From: an uncultured Craurococcus sp.
Lineage (GTDB): Bacteria > Pseudomonadota > Alphaproteobacteria > Acetobacterales > Acetobacteraceae
Reading direction: 5' to 3'
DNA length: 46,615 nt
Assembly: GCA_902805545.1 (NCBI GenBank)
Contig: CADCTD010000136.1
Location: forward strand, 1-46,615
Below the pieces are notes generated by a model that saw only the letters and a program-made list of their open reading frames with translations, ran no database searches and was not told the DNA's origin. Shown here one piece after another: positions 24,771-44,605 of the stretch (position 1 is its first letter; every line of letters starts with the position of its first letter). A program made the translations under genes and the position numbers.

Positions 24771-25613
24771 TCAGCCCTGTAACAGGCGGATCACGCCGTC
24801 CAGCTGGTCGAGGTCGCGGTAGGCGATCGTCACCTGGCCGCCGCGGCCGCTGCTGCGGATGCTGATGCGAAGGCCAAGGCGTTCCGACAACTCGCGCTCC
24901 AGGGCAGCGACTTCAGGCTCGGCCCGGGCGGGGCGCTCGGCGGGGTCGCGGGGCTTGGCGGCGGCGAGGGCCTCGGCCTGGCGGACATTGAGGCCGCGAT
25001 CGACGATCTGCAAGGCGAGGCCGATGGGGTCCGGCGCGGTCAGCAGGGCGCGGGCATGGCCGGCAGTGAGGGCGCCATCGCGCAGCAGCTCCCGCACCCG
25101 GTCGGGCAGCGCCAGGAGGCGAAGCGTGTTGGCAACATGGCTGCGGCTCTTGCCGACGGCCTGGCCGAGCTTATCCTGGGTGAGGCCGAACTCCTCCAGC
25201 AGGCGGCGATAGCCTTCGGCCTCCTCCAGGGCATTGAGGTCCTGGCGTTGCAGGTTCTCGACCAGGCCAGCGGCCATGGCCTCGCGGTCGCTGAGGTCGC
25301 GGATGACGACCGGGACCTCATGCAGCGGGACAAGCTGGGCCGCGCGCCAGCGGCGTTCCCCACCGATGATCTGGTACTGGCCGGCCTGGCCGGGCTTGGC
25401 GCGGACGAGGATCGGCTGCAGGACGCCATGCTCCCGCATGCTCTCCGCCAGTTCCTGCAAGGCGGCTGGCTCCATCGGACCACGGGGCTGGAAGGGGCCT
25501 GGCTCCAGCACCTCGATGGGCAGGGTGCGGAGGGCTTCGCCCGCAGGCGGTGCGGCGCTCGGGGCATCACCGAGCAGGGCGGAAAGGCCGCGGCCGAGAC
25601 GGGGGGATTTCAT
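24771..25613 (-). CDS. parB: Chromosome-partitioning protein ParB
   Basis: 280 residues. CTP-dependent DNA clamp that loads at parS and spreads. It has the N-terminal LGRGLSALLGD (ParA-stimulating region), the CTP-binding arginine-rich motif GERRWRA (85-91), and a helix-turn-helix around GLTQDKLGQAVGKSRSHVANTLRLL (about 143-167). The C-terminal dimerisation domain ends IAYRDLDQLDGVIRLLQG. ATGA overlap with parA. Its binding sites are very likely the two parS copies about 1.4 kb upstream in the same operon. Confidence 0.97.
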   Translation of the reverse strand: MKSPRLGRGLSALLGDAPSAAPPAGEALRTLPIEVLEPGPFQPRGPMEPAALQELAESMREHGVLQPILVRAKPGQAGQYQIIGGERRWRAAQLVPLHEVPVVIRDLSDREAMAAGLVENLQRQDLNALEEAEGYRRLLEEFGLTQDKLGQAVGKSRSHVANTLRLLALPDRVRELLRDGALTAGHARALLTAPDPIGLALQIVDRGLNVRQAEALAAAKPRDPAERPARAEPEVAALERELSERLGLRISIRSSGRGGQVTIAYRDLDQLDGVIRLLQG

Positions 25614-26428
25614 GCGGCGGACCCTTCGCGGCGGCGGAACTCGAGGGCGAGGGCGGCATAGGCCTGGGCACCGGGCGAGCGCGGATCGTAGAGGCTGACC
25701 GGCAGGCCATGCGAGGGCGCCTCGGTGATCCGGACGTTGCGTGGGATCACGGTCTCGAACACCTTGTCCTTGAAGAAGCCCCGGACATCCTGCGCAACCA
25801 GCTCCGAGAGGTTGTTGCGGCGGTCATACATGGTCAGCACGATCCCCTCGAGGGTGAGGGCGGGGTTCAGGGCCCGGCGGACCCGGTCGATGGTCTTGGT
25901 GATCTGGCTGACTCCCTCAAGGGCAAAGAACTCAGTCTGCAGGGGCACCAGAACGCCATGGGCGGCGACCAGGGCATTCAGCGTCAGCAGGCCGAGGGAG
26001 GGCGGACAGTCGAAGAAGATGTAGTCGAAGCCGCCGGTGAGCTCGGGCGCGGCGGTGAGGATGTGGCGTAGGCGGCGCTCCCGGTCGTCGAAGCCGACGA
26101 GCTCCACTTCTGCGCCGGCGAGGTCGCCATCCGCCGGGATGAGGGTGAGGTTGGGGACGGGGGTGGGCCGCAGGACCTCGGCCAGCGGGCAGTCCTCGAT
26201 CATCAGCGCATAGGTGCCGGCGCCACGGGCGCTGCGGTCAATGCCGAGGCCGGTGGAGGCGTTGCCTTGCGGGTCCAGGTCGACCAGCAGCACGCGGCTG
26301 CCGGTGGCCAGGGCGGTGGCAAGGTTGATGGCGGTTGTGGTCTTGCCGACGCCACCCTTCTGGTTGGCAAAGGCGATGACGCGCGGCGTGGCGCGGTCAG
26401 GCTTGGGCGCTGACAGGGCGGATCTCAC
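25610..26428 (-). CDS. parA: Chromosome-partitioning ATPase ParA
   Basis: 272 residues. Deviant Walker A motif KGGVGKTT at 24-31 (ANQKGGVGKTTTAINLA), Walker A' region VDLDPQGNASTGLG, and Walker B FDYIFFDCPPSLG. It makes ATP-dependent gradients on the nucleoid that pull ParB-parS to the cell pole. The start is GTG at 26428, giving a 15-residue leader before VIAFANQK, and it overlaps rsmG by 32 nt. Part of the operon mnmE-...-mnmG-rsmG-parA-parB. Confidence 0.97.
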   Translation of the reverse strand: MRSALSAPKPDRATPRVIAFANQKGGVGKTTTAINLATALATGSRVLLVDLDPQGNASTGLGIDRSARGAGTYALMIEDCPLAEVLRPTPVPNLTLIPADGDLAGAEVELVGFDDRERRLRHILTAAPELTGGFDYIFFDCPPSLGLLTLNALVAAHGVLVPLQTEFFALEGVSQITKTIDRVRRALNPALTLEGIVLTMYDRRNNLSELVAQDVRGFFKDKVFETVIPRNVRITEAPSHGLPVSLYDPRSPGAQAYAALALEFRRREGSAA

Positions 26429-27014
26429 TGAGCCGGAGGATGGTGGAATCGGGGTCGGTGCGGCTCGGGAACCGCTCTATGCGCATAGTCCAGTCCGCGG
26501 CGGCGGCCGTCAATTCCTCCGTAGCGGTGCGGCCTTTTGGGAAGAGGGCAATGCCGCCGGGAGAGAGGATGCGGTGCGCATGGCCGAGGAGGGTGGGCAA
26601 GGGAGCCAGGGCGCGAGCGCTGACGATAGCAGCGAGCGGCAGGCGGGCGGCTTCGATGCGGCTGGGGTGGATAGTCACACCGGTGAGGCCGAGGAGACGG
26701 GCGGCCTCTTGCAGGAAGGCGCATTTGCGACGGTCCGATTCGACGAGATGGGTGTCGCGGCCGCTCAGCAGGGCGAGGACGAGGCCGGGGAAGCCGGCGC
26801 CGGAGCCGAGATCGACCAATGGGCCCGGCTCGGCGGGGAGCAGGGGCGCAAGCTGGGCGGAATCGAGGATGTGCCGGGCCCATGCCACCTCCGCCTCAGC
26901 CCTGGCGATGAGGTTGATGCGCGTGTTCCAGCGAAGGAGGAGCGACAGATAGTCCCGCAACCGCGCTTCCGTTTCACGTGAAACACCAGCGAGCACGCCA
27001 TCGGGCTGTTTCAC
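26397..27014 (-). CDS. rsmG: 16S rRNA (guanine527-N7)-methyltransferase RsmG
   Basis: 205 residues. It methylates G527 of 16S rRNA using SAM. The SAM-binding motif is [12 protein letters not shown] at 66-77, followed by [21 protein letters not shown] and VSARALAPL, all typical. The start is GTG at 27014, overlapping the mnmG stop as GTGA. That GTG is itself part of a parS site, and codons for VSRET (11-15) form the second parS, as in other bacteria where gidB carries parS. Confidence 0.95.
26970..26985. promoter_or_regulatory. parS site 1 (ParB centromere)
   Basis: CGTTTCACGTGAAACA, 15 of 16 to the universal parS TGTTTCACGTGAAACA with the 14-bp palindromic core intact. It lies inside rsmG and encodes VSRET. 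Confidence 0.95.
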
Positions 27015-27022
27015 GTGAAACG
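27007..27022. promoter_or_regulatory. parS site 2 (ParB centromere)
   Basis: TGTTTCACGTGAAACG, 15 of 16 to parS with an intact core. It spans the last mnmG codons (encoding RFT and the stop) and the GTG start of rsmG. Its centre lies 37 bp from that of site 1. Each copy differs from the consensus at one opposite end base. Confidence 0.95.
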
Positions 27023-28882
27023 CACCTCGGCGCGGCGAAGATGGACGGCAAGGGCGGCGAGGGCGGCAGGGGTGATGCCAGGGACACGGCCGGCGCTGCC
27101 GAGGGTCGCAGGGCGAGAGGTTGCAAGGCGCTGACGCATCTCGGCCGAAAGGCCGGCAACTTCGGTGAAGTCGAGCGCGGAGGGAATCGGCAGCTTCTCC
27201 TCACGCTCGAGGATGCGAAGCTCGGCCGACTGACGCTCAAGATAGGGCGCGTAAAGCGCCTGAGCTTCCAACTCGGCCCTGACCTTCGGCGGCAGGTCGG
27301 GAAGCCATGGGAAGAGCCGCTCGGCATCGGTTGGGGATAGCGCGGGCAGTGCGAGGACTTCGAGAGCCGAGCGCCAGCGGCCATCCTGGTTCACCGCGAC
27401 GCCGGCGGCGGCGTATTGTGCCGGCGTCCTGCCATCCGACCGGGCGCGGGCCAAGGCATCGGCGACAGCCGCCTTGAAGCGGGCGTGCTGCGCGGCGCGG
27501 TCGGCGCCGACACAGCCCCAGGCAAGGCCACGATCCGTGAGGCGGAGGCCGGCATTATCGGCACGGAGGGCGAGCCGGTATTCGGAGCGGGCCGTGAGCA
27601 TCCGGTAGGGCTCCGTCACGCCCTGCAGCACAAGGTCGTCGATCAGCACGCCCGTATAGGCCTCGCCACGAGTGAGGATGCGGTCGGGGTCGGTGCCCCC
27701 GGCACGACAGGCGGCGTTGAGGCCGGCCATCAGGCCCTGGGCAGCCGCTTCCTCGTAGCCCGTGGTGCCGTTGATCTGGCCGGCAAGGAAGAGGCCCGGG
27801 GTCGTCCGCAGCTCCAGCGTCGGCAGGAGCGAGCGCGGGTCGACGAAGTCGTATTCGATGGCATAGCCGGGGCGCCGGATGCGGGCGCGCTCCAGCCCGG
27901 GAATGGAGGCGATCAGCGCGGCCTGGATCTCCTCCGGCAGGCTTGTTGAGATGCCGTTGGGGTAGACGGTGTCGTCCTCAAGCCCCTCGGGCTCAAGGAA
28001 GATCTGGTGGCGCTGGCGCTCGGCAAAGCGGACCACCTTGTCCTCGATGGAGGGGCAGTAGCGCGGGCCGGTACCCGCGATGCGGCCGCCATAGACGGCG
28101 CTGCGATGCAGGTTGGCACGGATCAGCGCATGGGTCGCGGGCGTCGTCGCTGTGATCGCGCAGGCGACCTGGCGGTTGGCGATGCGCTCGGTGAGCCAGG
28201 AGAGGGGCTCGGGCGGGTCGTCTCCGAGTTCGGCCTCGAGGCCTGCCCAGTCGATGCTGCGGCCATCGAGGCGGGGCGGCGTGCCGGTCTTCAGCCGGGC
28301 CAGGGGCAGACCGAGGCGGCTGAGGCTGTCCGCGAGCCCGACCGAGGGCGCCTCGTCAACCCGGCCAGCAGGGATGCGGCGCTCGCCGATATGGATCTCG
28401 CCGCGGAGGAAGGTGCCGGTGGTGATGACCACGGCGGCTGCGCCGATGCGGCGGCCGGCGGCCGTGACCACGCCGATGATGCGGCCGGCAGGGTCGAACA
28501 GGAGGTCCTCAGCAGCCTCGGCGAGCAGGTCGAGCCCCAGGGTGGCGTGCAGGAGGGCCTGCATCGCCTCCCGGTACAGGCGACGATCGGCCTGGGCGCG
28601 TGGACCGCGGACGGCCGGGCCCTTGCTGCGGTTGAGCAGCTTGAAATGGATGCCGGCCGCATCGGCCGCGCGGGCCATCAACCCGTCGAGCGCGTCGATC
28701 TCGCGCACCAGATGCCCCTTCCCGATGCCGCCGATGGCCGGGTTGCAGGACATCTCGCCGATGGTCTCGAGCCTATGGGTCAGCAGCAGGGTATGGGCGC
28801 CGCAGCGGGCGGCTGCCGCCGCGGCCTCGCAGCCGGCATGACCGCCGCCGATCACCACCACATCGCATGTCGTGTCGAACAT
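27011..28882 (-). CDS. mnmG: tRNA uridine-5-carboxymethylaminomethyl modification enzyme MnmG
   Basis: 623 residues, normal length. With MnmE it modifies U34 of certain tRNAs. The FAD-binding Rossmann motif is [14 protein letters not shown] (8-21); further signatures are [54 protein letters not shown] and [22 protein letters not shown], the last two diagnostic. The C-terminal MnmE-binding domain includes [10 protein letters not shown] and [18 protein letters not shown]. The final codons are within a parS site, so the C-terminal VRFT is constrained by ParB binding. Confidence 0.98.
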
Positions 28883-40430: not shown

Positions 40431-41081
40431 CTACTCCTCGATCCCAAGCAGGGCCGGCAGCTCCGCCATGCTGGCGAAGGGCCGGGCGCCGATGGCGGCC
40501 AGCACGGCCGCATCCGTCTCCCGCGTGAAGCCCAACACGCGGCAGCCCGCGGCGATCCCGGCCCGGGCGCCGAGCAGGCTGTCCTCCACCACCACGCAGG
40601 CCTCGGGCCGGGCCCCGCAGGCGGCGGCGGCGGCGCGGTACATGTCGGGCGCGGGCTTCGGGCGGGGAACGTCCTCGAAGGTGAAGACGCGCTCGCCGAA
40701 ATACCGGGCGAGGTCGAGCCGGGCGAGCTTGGCGCGCAGCTCCCCCCGGGTGGAGTTGGAGGCGACGGCCAGCGGCAGCCCTGCGGCGGCCGCGGCCGCG
40801 ACGGCGGCAGGGGCGCCGGGGATGGCCTCCACCTCCTCGGTCAGGGCGGTGAGGATGCGCCGCGTCAGCGCCTCGCCCCAGTCGCCGGGAAGGCGGCCGC
40901 AGCGGGCCTCGATCACCGGCAGCATCTCCGGCAGGGCCATGCCGAGGAAGGTCTCCCGCGCCTGATGGGCCGAGAGCTGCCAGCCCTGGGCGCTGATCGC
41001 CTCCGCGACCAGGCGGTTCACCAGCCCCTCGCTGTCGGCCAGCACGCCGTCGCAGTCGAACAGGACGGCGGCGGGGCGCAT
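40431..41081 (-). CDS. HAD-family phosphatase (Gph/YniC type)
   Basis: 216 residues. HAD motif I is VLFDCDGVLADSEG with nucleophile D9 and acid D11, motif II LAVASNSTRGEL, motif III K in RPKPAPDMY and motif IV VVEDSLLGARAG. The cap is the small helical C1 type of beta-phosphoglucomutase and phosphoglycolate phosphatase. The substrate cannot be told. The start overlaps the hemH stop as TGATG. Its place in the heme operon looks conserved rather than functional, though a phosphatase acting on a heme precursor cannot be excluded. Confidence 0.87.
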   Translation of the reverse strand: MRPAAVLFDCDGVLADSEGLVNRLVAEAISAQGWQLSAHQARETFLGMALPEMLPVIEARCGRLPGDWGEALTRRILTALTEEVEAIPGAPAAVAAAAAAGLPLAVASNSTRGELRAKLARLDLARYFGERVFTFEDVPRPKPAPDMYRAAAAACGARPEACVVVEDSLLGARAGIAAGCRVLGFTRETDAAVLAAIGARPFASMAELPALLGIEE

Positions 41082-42157
41082 CAGGCGAGTTCCCTGGTCC
41101 GGGCGCGGGCCCGGGCATGCGGGCAGTCGCCGAAGGGCTTCGGGCACTGCCGCCCGCCGGCGAAGCTGCACAAGGGCCGCTCATCGGCATCGGCGCGGCG
41201 GACCAGGTCGCGCAGCGCCCTGATGAAGGCCGGGTCGCTGTTCTGCGCCGGGACGCGGTAGTAGCCGGGGACGCCGAGGCGCTCCGCCTCCTCCCGGTAC
41301 TCGACGTCGAGCTCGACCAGCGTCTCGGAATGCTCGGAGACGAAGGCGATGGGGCAGATCAGCACCGCGGTCTTGTCATGGCCGGCGCGCTCCAGCTCCG
41401 CCTCGGTGCTGGGGCCGATCCATTTCTGCGGGGTGACGCGGGACTGGTAGCAGACGATGTGGTCCAGCCCCTCGATATGCAGCCGCTCGACCACGGCGGC
41501 GACGGACTGCTCCACCTGCCACTGGTAGGGGTCGCCGCGCTTGACGATGCTCTCCGGCAGGCCGTGGGCGGAGAAGAGGATGCGCAGCGGCACCTCCGGC
41601 GCCAGGGCGGCGCGGGCGGCGTGATAGGCGGCCCGCACGGCCGCCGCCGTCGCCTCGGCGAAGGCCGGGTCGGAATGGTAGCAGCAGAGGGTGCTGGTCG
41701 GCACGGCGAGGCCGGCGCGGGCCGCGGCCTCATCCCAGGCGGTGATGCTGCTGCCGGTCGTCGTCGTCGAGTATTGCGGGTAGAGCGGCAGCAGCAGCAC
41801 CCGGTCCGGGCCCCAGTCGCGCACGGCGCGGGCGGCGGCGTCGCTCATCGGGTGCCAGTAGCGCATGGCGACGAAGCAGCGGTACTCGGCGCCGCCGGCC
41901 GCGTTCAGCTCCGCCTCGAGGTCGCGGGCCTGGGCCTCGGTCAGCTCGAGAAGGGGCGAGCGGCCGCCGAGGATGGCATAGTTCTCGGACGCGGCCGGGG
42001 TGCGCCGCTTGGCGATGAACCGGCCGAGCCAGGGGCGGATGAAGCCGGGCACCCGCAGGATGGCCGGGTCGGTGAACAGGTTCTCGAGGAACGGGCGCAC
42101 GCTGTCCGGCGCGTCCGGCCCCCCGAGATTGAACAACACCACCGCCACCCGCTGCAT
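41081..42157 (-). CDS. hemH: Ferrochelatase
   Basis: 358 residues. It inserts Fe(II) into protoporphyrin IX. Start at 42157 with GGGAG 6 nt upstream gives VAVVLFNLGGPDAPDSVRPFLENLF, the standard N-terminus. Catalytic H198 is in LFSAHGLPESIVKRGDPY and E278 in FVSEHSETLVELDVEY. The last 30 residues contain three cysteines, C330, C338 and C345 (CX7CX6C), beyond the core; several bacterial ferrochelatases bind a [2Fe-2S] cluster with C-terminal cysteines, so this one may too. It is upstream of the HAD gene and downstream of hemE, with which it may share a transcript despite hairpins between them. Confidence 0.96.
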   Translation of the reverse strand: MQRVAVVLFNLGGPDAPDSVRPFLENLFTDPAILRVPGFIRPWLGRFIAKRRTPAASENYAILGGRSPLLELTEAQARDLEAELNAAGGAEYRCFVAMRYWHPMSDAAARAVRDWGPDRVLLLPLYPQYSTTTTGSSITAWDEAAARAGLAVPTSTLCCYHSDPAFAEATAAAVRAAYHAARAALAPEVPLRILFSAHGLPESIVKRGDPYQWQVEQSVAAVVERLHIEGLDHIVCYQSRVTPQKWIGPSTEAELERAGHDKTAVLICPIAFVSEHSETLVELDVEYREEAERLGVPGYYRVPAQNSDPAFIRALRDLVRRADADERPLCSFAGGRQCPKPFGDCPHARARARTRELA

Positions 42158-42276
42158 CGGAACTCCCCGAGCCCAAGATCCAGGCCCGCAGATTTGGCCG
42201 GTTCGCCAGCGGGTCAAGCTGCGGGTTAGAGCAAAGCGGGGGCGGGGGGAATTACCCGGCGGGCGGAATCGGGGCA

Positions 42277-42329
42277 TTGAGGGGGCGCTGCCCCCTCAAA
42301 CTCCCCTGCCAAGGGCCGCAGGGCCCTTG
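42277..42329 (-). terminator. Two strong hairpins between hemE and hemH
   Basis: Right-hand: CAAGGGCC-GCAG-GGCCCTTG (42310-42329). Left-hand: TTGAGGGGGC-GCT-GCCCCCTCAA (42277-42299), a 10-bp stem. Both are perfect. They stand 12-64 nt past the hemE stop in its direction of transcription. No T-run follows, so they may slow Rho or protect the 3' end, or be members of a palindromic intergenic repeat family seen in related genomes. The remaining bases to the hemH start show nothing else. Confidence 0.6.
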
Positions 42330-42340
42330 AAACCCTTGAG

Positions 42341-43399
42341 TCAGCCGGTTCGCACAAGGCGGACGAGACTGGAAACATTCTCAGGCGACGTCACCTTCTC
42401 GATGCCGTGGCCGAGGTTGAAGATGAAGGGGCGGCCGCGCATGGCACCCAGGATGGACCGGGCCTCCGTCTCGAGCGCCATCCCGCCCGTGACCAGCGAG
42501 AGGGGGTCGAGGTTGCCCTGGAGGCACATGGTGGGCGGCACGGCCGAGGCGGCCCAGCGCAGGTCCATCGAGGTGTCGATGCCGAGTCCCTGGACGCCGG
42601 TGCGCTGGCTGTACTCGATCAGCATCGGCCCGGCGAGGCGGGGGAAGCCGATCAGCGGGATGGTCGGGTGGCGCTTGCGGATGGCCCGCACCAGCGTCGC
42701 CGTCGGCTCGATCACCCAGCGGCGGAACTGGCTCGGCGACAGCAGGCCGGCCCAGCTGTCGAACAGCATCAGCACCTCCGCCCCCGCATCGGCCTGGGCG
42801 CAGAGATAGTCGGTGCTGGCCTCGACCAGGGTGCGGATGAGGCGGCCGAACAGCGCCGGGTCGCCATAGGCCATGCCCCGGGCGGCGGCGAAGTCGCGGC
42901 TGCCATGGCCCTCGACCATGTAGCAGGCGACGGTGAAGGGGCTGCCGGCGAAGCCGATCAGCGTCGTCCGCGGCGCCTCCCGCTCCAGCCCGGCGCGGAC
43001 CAGGCGGACCGTCTCGATGATCGGCGCGGCATTGGCGGCGCAGACCGAGGGGTCCAGCCGGTCGATCGCGGCCGCGTCGCGCAGCGGCTCCAGCACCGGC
43101 CCCTCGCCCTCGGCGAAGCGGAGCGGCTGGCCCATCGCCCAGGGGACCATGAGGATGTCTGAGAACAGGATGGCGCCGTCCATGCCGTAGCGGCGGATCG
43201 GCTGCAGGGTGACCTCGGCCGCGAGGCCTGGGTTGGTGCAGAGGGCGATGAAGTCGCCGGCCTGGGCGCGGATCTCCCGGTACTCGGGCAGGTAGCGGCC
43301 GGCCTGGCGCATCAGCCACATCGGCGGCGGCCAGACCGCCTCGCCGGCCAGGGCACGGAGCAGGGGTTTCGGGGCAGGACTCTCGCTCGGGCCAGGCAT
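42341..43399 (-). CDS. hemE: Uroporphyrinogen decarboxylase
   Basis: 352 residues. It decarboxylates uroporphyrinogen III to coproporphyrinogen III. The start at 43399 has GGAG 6 nt before it. The active-site arginines R31 and R35 lie in MWLMRQAGRYLPEYREIRA, and the catalytic aspartate is in ILFSDILMVPWAMG. GFAGSPFTVACYMVEG and the C-terminal FNLGHGIEKVTSPENVSSLV (with the active-site His) are diagnostic. Its 5' end borders the probable origin; transcription runs away from it. Confidence 0.97.
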   Translation of the reverse strand: MPGPSESPAPKPLLRALAGEAVWPPPMWLMRQAGRYLPEYREIRAQAGDFIALCTNPGLAAEVTLQPIRRYGMDGAILFSDILMVPWAMGQPLRFAEGEGPVLEPLRDAAAIDRLDPSVCAANAAPIIETVRLVRAGLEREAPRTTLIGFAGSPFTVACYMVEGHGSRDFAAARGMAYGDPALFGRLIRTLVEASTDYLCAQADAGAEVLMLFDSWAGLLSPSQFRRWVIEPTATLVRAIRKRHPTIPLIGFPRLAGPMLIEYSQRTGVQGLGIDTSMDLRWAASAVPPTMCLQGNLDPLSLVTGGMALETEARSILGAMRGRPFIFNLGHGIEKVTSPENVSSLVRLVRTG

Positions 43400-43467
43400 G
43401 CGTTTCTCCTTCGAGCCTAACCCTTCGCAAGAAAACAAGAGTCTTGAAAGGATGGAGTAGTGATAGG

Positions 43468-43514
43468 GCCTGTGGATGCTGTGGAGCCAATTACTCCGGA
43501 TTCCATCCACAGGC
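43468..43514. repeat. Inverted repeat 1 in the probable oriC
   Basis: GCCTGTGGATG and CATCCACAGGC, 11-bp perfect arms with a 25-bp spacer. Each arm holds a DnaA-box-like core. The spacer contains TGTGGA and the AT-richer CCAATTACTCC. Confidence 0.85.
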
Positions 43515-43527
43515 CTGTCCACCATCG

Positions 43528-43612
43528 CCTGAGTCGGCGACTCGCTGACTCCGTTGGGGGAATCCTCCCTCGTCCCGGAGTCGACCGACTCAGGCGGGAA
43601 TCCTCTCCCGCC
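43528..43612. repeat. Nested inverted and direct repeats in the probable oriC
   Basis: CCTGAGTCGG (43528-43537) pairs with CCGACTCAGG (43585-43594). GAGTCGGCGACTC (43531-43543) is itself a palindrome. GACTCCG (43547-43553) pairs with CGGAGTC (43576-43582). The 10-mer GGGAATCCTC is repeated directly at 43558 and 43596. GGCGGGA-ATCCTC-TCCCGCC (43593-43612) is a hairpin. Seven of the GANTC sites fall within these repeats. Confidence 0.85.
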
Positions 43613-43711
43613 CGGACGGGGTGTGCGGAGTCACCCCCCCTATCCACCGCGGACGGCATTCGCGCCCGAGTTTTCCACTGCGTCCACAACGGGCTGCGCT
43701 ATTCTCCCGGG

Positions 43712-44605
43712 ATGCCCCACAGAATCGTCAACCTGCACCTGGTCTCCGACAGCACGGGCGAGACGCTCAATTCGATCGCCCGGGCGACCCTCGCGCGGTT
43801 CGAGGACCATCATGTGGTGCATCATCGCTGGAGCCTCATCCGCTCCCGCCTGCAACTCGACCGGGTGCTGGAGGGGCTCAACCACGAGCCGGGGCCGGTG
43901 CTCTTCACCCTGGTCGACAAGAGCCTGCGGCTGGCACTGGAGGAGAGCTGCATGCGGCTCGGCGTGCCCTGCCTCTCCGTCCTCGACCAGGTGGTGGAGC
44001 TGCTGCAGGGGCAGCTGGGCGCGCGGGCGCGGGAGAAGCGGGCGGCGCAGCATGTGATGGATGCCGACTACTTCCGCCGGATCGATGCCATGCACTACGT
44101 GCTGGCGCATGACGACGGGCAGGGCACGGCGGGCATCCACGAGGCGGATGTCTGCCTCGTCGGCGTCTCCCGCAGCAGCAAGACGCCGACCTGCTTCTAC
44201 CTGGCGAACCGAGGGATCAAGGCGGCCAATGTCCCGATCGTCCCCAATACGGAGCTGCCGCCGGAGCTCGCCGATTCGCCCTGCCCGGTGGTGGGGCTGA
44301 CCATCGAGACCAATGCGCTGATCGAGATCCGCCGGCACCGGCTGCGGCTGATCGGCGCCGACGGGGTCCGCCAGGACACCAACGACTACATCGACCATGA
44401 CAGCGTGAAGGCGGAGATCCTCTCCGCCCGGCGGCTCTGCAACCAGCATGGCTGGCCGGTGATCGACGTGACCCGGCGCAGCATCGAGGAGACGGCGGCG
44501 ACCGTCCTCCAGCTGATGGAGGCCTGGCATGCCCGGCGGGGCGCCGAGGCCGCGCATGCCCCGGCGGACCCGGCGGCGGCGGTGCTCGGCGGAGGCGCGC
44601 CGTGA
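43712..44605 (+). CDS. ppsR: Pyruvate, phosphate dikinase / PEP synthase regulatory protein (PpsR, RP001 homologue)
   Basis: 297 residues, DUF299 family. Bifunctional kinase/phosphorylase that uses ADP to inactivate PPDK or PEP synthase by phosphorylating a threonine and Pi to reverse it. The nucleotide loop is GVSRSSKT (151-158), preceded by [19 protein letters not shown] (7-25, diagnostic) and followed by [18 protein letters not shown]. The start at 43712 is the first ATG after the origin gap. It is the marker gene of alphaproteobacterial origins. Its stop overlaps maf (GTGA). Confidence 0.95.

Follow-up and report, generated by a model that had tools for sequence, protein, structure and literature searches.

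Introduction

The chromosomal replication origin of Caulobacter crescentus, Cori, adjoins the hemE gene and contains DnaA boxes, and the short palindrome GANTC is the target of the cell-cycle methyltransferase CcrM in alphaproteobacteria. The origin of Caulobacter and its close relatives has been described as containing 'several GANTC motifs' (PMC3973325, citing Shaheen et al. 2009), and CcrM in that organism is reported to act late in the cell cycle (PMC3973325, PMC4490391). According to the first of these accounts, GANTC sites near the origin are hemimethylated in approximately 80% of Caulobacter cells, cells without CcrM have a wild-type-like DNA content in minimal medium, and extra chromosomes build up when CcrM is over-expressed (PMC3973325). 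The diverging results of CcrM loss and over-expression (PMC3973325) leave the control of DnaA-type alphaproteobacterial origins by this enzyme looking unsettled. The origins of repABC replicons have also been called GANTC-rich (PMC6090056), and for one of these, ori2 of Agrobacterium tumefaciens, hemimethylation has been proposed to prevent re-initiation (PMC11514494, PMC6090056).

That GANTC occurs in the Caulobacter origin has been published before, and the locus described here, from a relative of Belnapia in the Acetobacteraceae, is a denser, phased variant of it. A search of the open-licence PMC literature found no description in the Acetobacteraceae of the density of the sites, of evidence for their selection, or of their phasing.

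The hemE-ppsR gap as a probable chromosomal origin

The window (that is, the whole stretch of DNA that was analysed, 46,615 bp in length) is contig C136 of a genome assembly of 4,526,974 bases in 192 contigs. Judged by the ppsR gene, the named relatives nearest to it are Belnapia arida and B. moabensis, whose best-matching segments are 97% identical, and after them other members of Belnapia and Paeniroseomonas. The following features of the window are relevant to the argument.

24771..25613, minus strand: parB (Pfam ParB_N, HTH_ParB and ParB_C)
25610..26428, minus strand: parA (Pfam AAA_31; the name is suggested by its position beside parB)
26397..27014, minus strand: rsmG, or gidB (Pfam GidB)
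26970..26985, unstranded: parS-like site with one mismatch
27007..27022, unstranded: parS-like site with one mismatch
27011..28882, minus strand: mnmG, or gidA (Pfam GIDA)
41081..42277, minus strand: hemH, ferrochelatase (Pfam)
42341..43399, minus strand: hemE, uroporphyrinogen decarboxylase (Pfam URO-D)
43400..43711, unstranded: hemE-ppsR intergenic gap and predicted oriC, 312 bp between the start codons of divergent genes, with DnaA-like boxes, and with parS and parAB-gidAB in the window
43424..43453, unstranded: candidate unwinding element, the most A+T-rich 30-bp tile of the gap (GC 0.37), containing the GANTC nearest hemE
43439..43726, unstranded: GANTC cluster, established by counting and by shuffles, with sites starting at 43439, 43499, 43531, 43539, 43547, 43560, 43578, 43587, 43598, 43628 and 43722
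43467..43515, unstranded: inverted repeat (43467-43478 and 43504-43515; 12 nt, 100%), which overlaps the DnaA-like boxes of the left group
43471..43479, minus strand: DnaA-like box of the left group, two mismatches to TTATCCACA
43503..43511, plus strand: DnaA-like box of the left group, two mismatches to TTATCCACA
43526..43596, unstranded: inverted repeat (43526-43537 and 43585-43596; 12 nt, 100%), based on two GANTC sites
43531..43632, unstranded: densest part of the cluster, eight GANTC in 102 bp, between both groups of DnaA-like boxes
43640..43648, plus strand: DnaA-like box of the right group, two mismatches to TTATCCACA
43671..43679, plus strand: DnaA-like box of the right group, two mismatches to TTATCCACA
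43712..44605, plus strand: ppsR, kinase/pyrophosphorylase (Pfam PF03618)

The gap is very probably the chromosomal oriC of a Belnapia species, because it contains DnaA-like boxes, separates the divergent hemE and ppsR genes, and is accompanied in the window by parAB-gidAB and two parS-like sites, approximately 16 kb away. The four DnaA-like boxes of the gap compare with a shuffle mean of 0.44 (one of 500 shuffles held as many), and none of 138 other 312-bp tiles of the window contains more than two. A comparison set of 80 gaps was assembled from the window together with 79 other loci, out of 80 that were fetched (L067 was left out, hemE not being on it); these gaps average 3.95 DnaA-like boxes, compared with 0.42 after shuffling, and 69 of them contain a site with at most one mismatch. 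The division into a left and a right group of boxes was visible by eye in 29 gaps that were inspected. A parS match was found in nine of 13 genomes searched, in each of which the contig with ppsR carries one match at a distance of 8-69 kb from that gene, and was absent in the other four. These markers agree with the original prediction, which had placed the GANTC cluster at a probable hemE/ppsR origin; ten of its sites lie within the gap.

Additional features of the gap were surveyed. GC skew does not change sign at this point in the window, and across 120 stretches sampled from the relative Belnapia sp. F-4-1 it is weak and noisy, with no clear minimum at ppsR. The CtrA boxes of Caulobacter Cori are of the form TTAA-N7-TTAA. 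TTAA is absent from the window's gap, which consequently has no CtrA box of that type, and the full motif occurs in one of the 80 gaps (L040). Since CtrA control is described as differing among alphaproteobacteria (PMC2877005), the missing boxes lower the case for Cori-like control rather than the case for an origin. A GANTC in an A-rich context is found within 75 bp of the hemE start in 57 of the 80 gaps, as a loose pattern that includes gaps without a dense array. Rfam returned no match in the window at the gathering score, and a scan for sigma-70 promoters and terminators found nothing, the promoter scan of 43300-43800 being almost empty in shuffled sequence as well and thus of little power. 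Strand folding of the region gave a z-score of -3.23; because GANTC is palindromic and any two sites can pair, a functional hairpin is not claimed.

Density of GANTC sites

The original prediction had counted eleven GANTC sites within 288 bp (43439-43726), ten of them between 43439 and 43632, at a place where approximately one is expected by chance, and had reported none in the following 550 bp of ppsR. A direct recount reproduced the count exactly, and the first site after 43722 is at 44273. Ten sites lie in the 312-bp gap, compared with a mean of 1.03 in shuffled sequence, and none of 500 mononucleotide shuffles reached ten. One further site, the twelfth, is located at 43378, within hemE. 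The window as a whole contains 41 GANTC, with a maximum of three in any 288 bp outside the cluster.

Ranking at the scale of a genome was conducted with Belnapia sp. F-4-1, using 120 stretches that together cover 2,397,998 bp (44%) of its 5,395,585-bp main scaffold; the stretches were spread across the scaffold and supplemented by extra ones near ppsR, one of which caught a second cluster. This sample contains 2,109 GANTC (0.88 per kb). The homologous hemE-ppsR gap ranks first within it, with 11 GANTC in 288 bp, and is followed by stretches with seven (3' of acs), five and five sites, the remainder having at most four. The origin gap is the densest GANTC stretch seen in the F-4-1 sample, yet another dense cluster exists: none equals eleven, as the original prediction would have it, but seven sites fall within 176 bp at one place. 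A group of five GANTC in 67 bp was observed in the same genome, approximately 1 Mb from ppsR (L181:15933-15999; G121:C1:2681933-2681999).

Conservation of the GANTC sites and evidence for selection

Comparison with related gaps suggests that evolution keeps the GANTC sites, and it gives good support to selection on CcrM sites in this origin. Across the 80 gaps, GANTC ranks first of 256 gapped words for over-representation (744 occurrences on both strands, compared with 176.7 expected, or 4.2-fold), and the other 15 gapped palindromes occur at 0.28 to 2.07 times expectation. GANTC exceeds its own shuffles at p<0.05 in 49 of the 80 gaps, and the origin stretch is the richest in GANTC of all 288-bp stretches in 64 of 79 loci, with eight ties and seven loci in which it is lower.

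Further analyses examined which positions of the sites are retained. Within the Belnapia clade (eight gaps), pairs of rows differ at 8.5% of the GA and TC columns, at 24% of the centre columns and at 25% of the others; the site columns were chosen for having GANTC in at least four rows, and a control using other shared words gave p values of 0.026 and 0.038. Among 39 disjoint pairs of gaps, in which each pair was counted in both directions and alignments near 75% identity are noisy, GANTC was retained in 162 of 330 cases (49%), compared with 5,210 of 21,630 (24%) for other words, and the centre base had changed in 38% of retained GANTC sites, compared with 17% of other retained words. GANTC ranks eighth of 191 words for retention. 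Six of the seven words retained better resemble segments of conserved boxes of the DnaA type, with a changed centre in 0-16% of cases; in the seventh, CG.TA, the centre has changed in 40%. The centre base of GANTC, with strands pooled, is A or T in 52% and C or G in 48% of sites, compared with 38% A/T in the gaps, so that it is variable and not exactly at background.

The number of sites itself is labile. At least seven GANTC are present in 21 of the 80 gaps, one of which (L049) is an 862-bp gap, and their distribution implies at least nine changes on a ppsR plus hemE tree, in which gain and loss are indistinguishable. The gap of Roseomonas mucosa ATCC BAA-692 contains 12 sites and that of R. 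acroporae contains eight, in middle sequences that look unlike those of Belnapia by eye; in the alignment, five of the 12 R. mucosa sites and five of the eight R. acroporae sites align to within a single column with a site from a preceding row. The seven named Belnapia and Paeniroseomonas loci have 8-11 GANTC each, as expected of an array that is conserved among relatives, but that expectation does not extend to the family, in which the median gap has four sites, 48 of 80 gaps have 0-4, and three have none. A further 40 gaps contain 0-6 sites (four of them lack hemE ahead of ppsR and cannot be compared with the rest). Given these low counts in 48 of 80 and in the further 40 gaps, the family does not depend on a dense array.

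Spacing of the sites along the helix

In eight lineages with 6-12 sites, which were picked after the counts had been seen, the inter-site distances, taken up to 70 bp, tend towards values of approximately 10, 20, 30, 40, 50 and 60 bp. The best period is 10.0 bp, with R 0.432, a value that none of 400 random placements reached (the maximum at their best period was 0.335). When 11 rows were used and pairs whose columns had already occurred in a preceding row were left out, R was 0.334, which none of 500 random placements reached. Taken singly at 10.25 bp, six of 11 lineages give p<0.03 and five fail; when the period is not fixed, neither the window (50 of 400 placements as phased) nor R. mucosa (35 of 400) stands out alone. 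Overall, the spacing of approximately 10 bp favours a placement of GANTC on one helical face in the dense arrays.

Other gaps and origins display the periodicity less clearly or not at all. Sixteen named gaps with 4-6 sites, related ones included, are weakly phased (8 of 500), six held-out gaps of the family were matched by 67 of 500 random placements, 13 bp is the peak period in 42 gaps with 3-6 sites, and 14 gaps drawn at the level of the class show no phasing (R 0.024; 492 of 500). The GATC sites of Escherichia coli oriC are not phased by this measure (R 0.16). The phasing is therefore a property of this group of origins; a protein array or a bend would explain it as readily as a reader of methylation.

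Of 16 words used as controls, three (C-tract words and ATC) match GANTC in the strength of their phasing. C-tracts in the origin gaps of the eight lineages recur at approximately the helical period, offset from GANTC by roughly half a turn; for CCC and TCCC this offset was matched by 0 and 1 of 300 null placements, respectively, and it is weaker for four other words.

Methyltransferase, GcrA and SeqA

The original prediction presupposed a CcrM gene, which is present. A profile search found one RAMA-domain match in the genome, and a CcrM-type gene (L001:1489-3039, minus strand) encodes an N6_N4_Mtase domain followed by a RAMA domain, with scores of 209.4 and 68.9 bits, both above the cut-off. 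This combination is the CcrM architecture, and methylation of GANTC is predicted in this species; in an isolate of Roseomonas gilardii, m6A at GANTC has been detected by SMRT sequencing (PMC5356067). A gene for GcrA is present as well. RAMA was found in 189 of 200 Acetobacteraceae genomes searched and was missing in 11, and in three of the 169 genomes that are at least 90% complete and at most 5% contaminated; it is missing too rarely for genomes without CcrM to be usable as a natural control. The analogy with E. coli and SeqA that had been drawn for this locus holds for the cluster of methylation sites in oriC but not for the reader, since a search for SeqA (PF03925) found no match in four Belnapia genomes, and among 14 control genomes gave a match in E. 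coli.

A second GANTC element near acs

The second cluster of the F-4-1 sample lies 3' of acs, which was recognized by its AMP-binding and ACAS_N domains. The stretch after acs contains 3-7 GANTC in seven Belnapia loci, and in L109, on the other strand, six GANTC occur in 288 bp. One conserved element was found in all 12 genomes tried (eight Belnapia and four Siccirubricoccus); in a Siccirubricoccus locus (L280) it is flanked by genes for a histidine kinase and for an M48 peptidase, the latter read as htpX. The copy in the window's own genome (G000:C147:27514-27573; also L104, L273 and L285; sequence model R1) is intergenic and has the core CCCGAGTCGCGCGAACGAATCGCTGAC. By sequence model R1, the element is present in 51 of 200 Acetobacteraceae genomes, 48 of which have a single match, and in 28 of 102 genera; matches at the weak end, near E 0.01, may be due to chance.

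In seven of the eight genomes in which the element and ppsR share a contig (G175, G172, G121, G036, G152, G088 and G104, three of them Belnapia), the distance between them is approximately 27-227 kb; in G045, where the match is weak, it is approximately 407 kb. In G160 the element is more than approximately 270 kb from ppsR, if that genome is the one to which L027 belongs, and in the remaining genomes the two are on different contigs.

The GANTC centres of this element are mostly fixed. Its left end has the form GAAC-N7-GAAC, exactly in nine of 33 rows, with one mismatch in 17 and with more in seven (four of 1,650 shuffles contain an exact copy), and this form is the reverse complement of GTTC-N7-GTTC, which is described as the alphaproteobacterial LexA motif (PMC3323433). 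The right-hand LexA-like box is exact in only one of the 33 rows, and Rfam gave no match up to E 1 in three loci that carry the element. Because the centres are mostly fixed and the left end is LexA-like, the element may be an SOS-controlled RNA or promoter rather than a component of the system at the origin.

Proposed role of the array and alternative readings

The preferred reading, to which a probability of roughly 0.5 is assigned, is that at this Belnapia oriC two groups of DnaA-like boxes flank selected CcrM sites, and that hemimethylation, read on one face of the helix, lowers or delays re-initiation. The two groups would flank a middle part of the origin filled with GANTC, in which selection appears to act on the sites themselves, with GA and TC kept, the centre base varying, and the number of sites having risen or fallen repeatedly. 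Initiation would leave both daughter origins hemimethylated until CcrM is synthesized late in the cycle, and if the timing reported for Caulobacter also holds here, the dense array would mark a newly replicated origin throughout most of the cell cycle. A complex bound to the DNA at several GANTC along one helical face could distinguish a hemimethylated from a fully methylated origin, and re-initiation would be lowered or delayed either by hindered assembly of DnaA between the box groups or by a changed bend of the middle part. In simpler terms, the cell may use GANTC to tell old origins from freshly copied ones, and a delay of re-initiation seems the likeliest use of such a label. Control of initiation by methylation is itself something that we infer, and caution is called for mainly because Caulobacter cells without CcrM display a wild-type-like DNA content in minimal medium (PMC3973325).

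Among the alternatives, an unlikely one is that CcrM methylation and GcrA control the hemE and ppsR promoters that overlap the origin, with little role in initiation. At a promoter, one or two GANTC are expected. The eleven sites of the cluster are far above that number, they fill the middle part between the groups of DnaA-like boxes, and both their number and their places turn over; in addition, no sigma-70 promoter was found in 43300-43800, an observation of little power given that shuffled sequence contains almost none either. The genes for both proteins are present, the A-rich-context GANTC close to the hemE start recurs in 57 of 80 gaps as a loose pattern, the intergenic regions of alphaproteobacteria have been described as enriched in GANTC (PMC3973325), and the binding of GcrA is reported to depend on GANTC methylation (PMC3667746), all of which would suit such a role.

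It is improbable that the middle part serves instead as phased, bendable DNA or as a track for a DnaA filament, in which GANTC steps containing A/T alternate with C-tracts approximately every half turn, selection acts on the shape and methylation is incidental. The phasing of both C-tracts and GANTC at approximately 10 bp, roughly out of phase with one another, is what such a structure would display. A requirement for shape would not, however, prefer GANTC among words that contain A/T, yet GANTC tops all 256 words, and GANTC sites without an adjoining CCC or GGG keep an R of 0.43 at 10 bp (42 distances, with no null run).

That the cluster arose by chance, mutation bias or local duplication and was preserved through common descent is very improbable, for although many site positions are common to relatives and the gap contains short inverted and direct repeats, no shuffle of 500 reaches the count, dense arrays occur where the middle sequence looks different by eye (for example, in L072 and L059), and GA and TC are kept as the centre varies.

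The preferred reading, of a hemimethylation label on the origin, can be extended, although the extension is tentative and itself rather doubtful. Belnapia and several Roseomonas-like lineages may have evolved, perhaps repeatedly, a hemimethylation switch without SeqA for a DnaA-dependent origin of the chromosome, in which a phased CcrM array is bound by a protein reader on one face of the DNA, and for which the element near acs would be a second control site.

Comparison with known origins

An origin with approximately ten apparently selected, phased CcrM sites would be a stronger test object for CcrM control, and its phasing names what to seek: a protein that binds multiple GANTC from the same side of the helix. 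The locus resembles Cori of C. crescentus in having hemE beside the origin, DnaA boxes, several GANTC and CcrM in the genome. It is unlike Cori in its 11 sites in 288 bp, in their phasing, and in the absence of TTAA from the gap, the Cori sites being described in print as 'several'.

A second likeness is to E. coli oriC, which has 11 GATC in its annotated 232-bp origin, compared with 11 GANTC in 288 bp, and where the modification is likewise the work of a solitary adenine methyltransferase. The two nevertheless differ in that the motif of the Dam/SeqA system is GATC, in that SeqA was not found in the four Belnapia genomes, and in that the GATC sites are unphased. The repABC origins of Rhizobiales, such as A. 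tumefaciens ori2, share with this locus a richness in GANTC, and hemimethylation has been proposed to block re-initiation there; unlike the DnaA-type chromosomal origin predicted here, they belong to RepC-type replicons.
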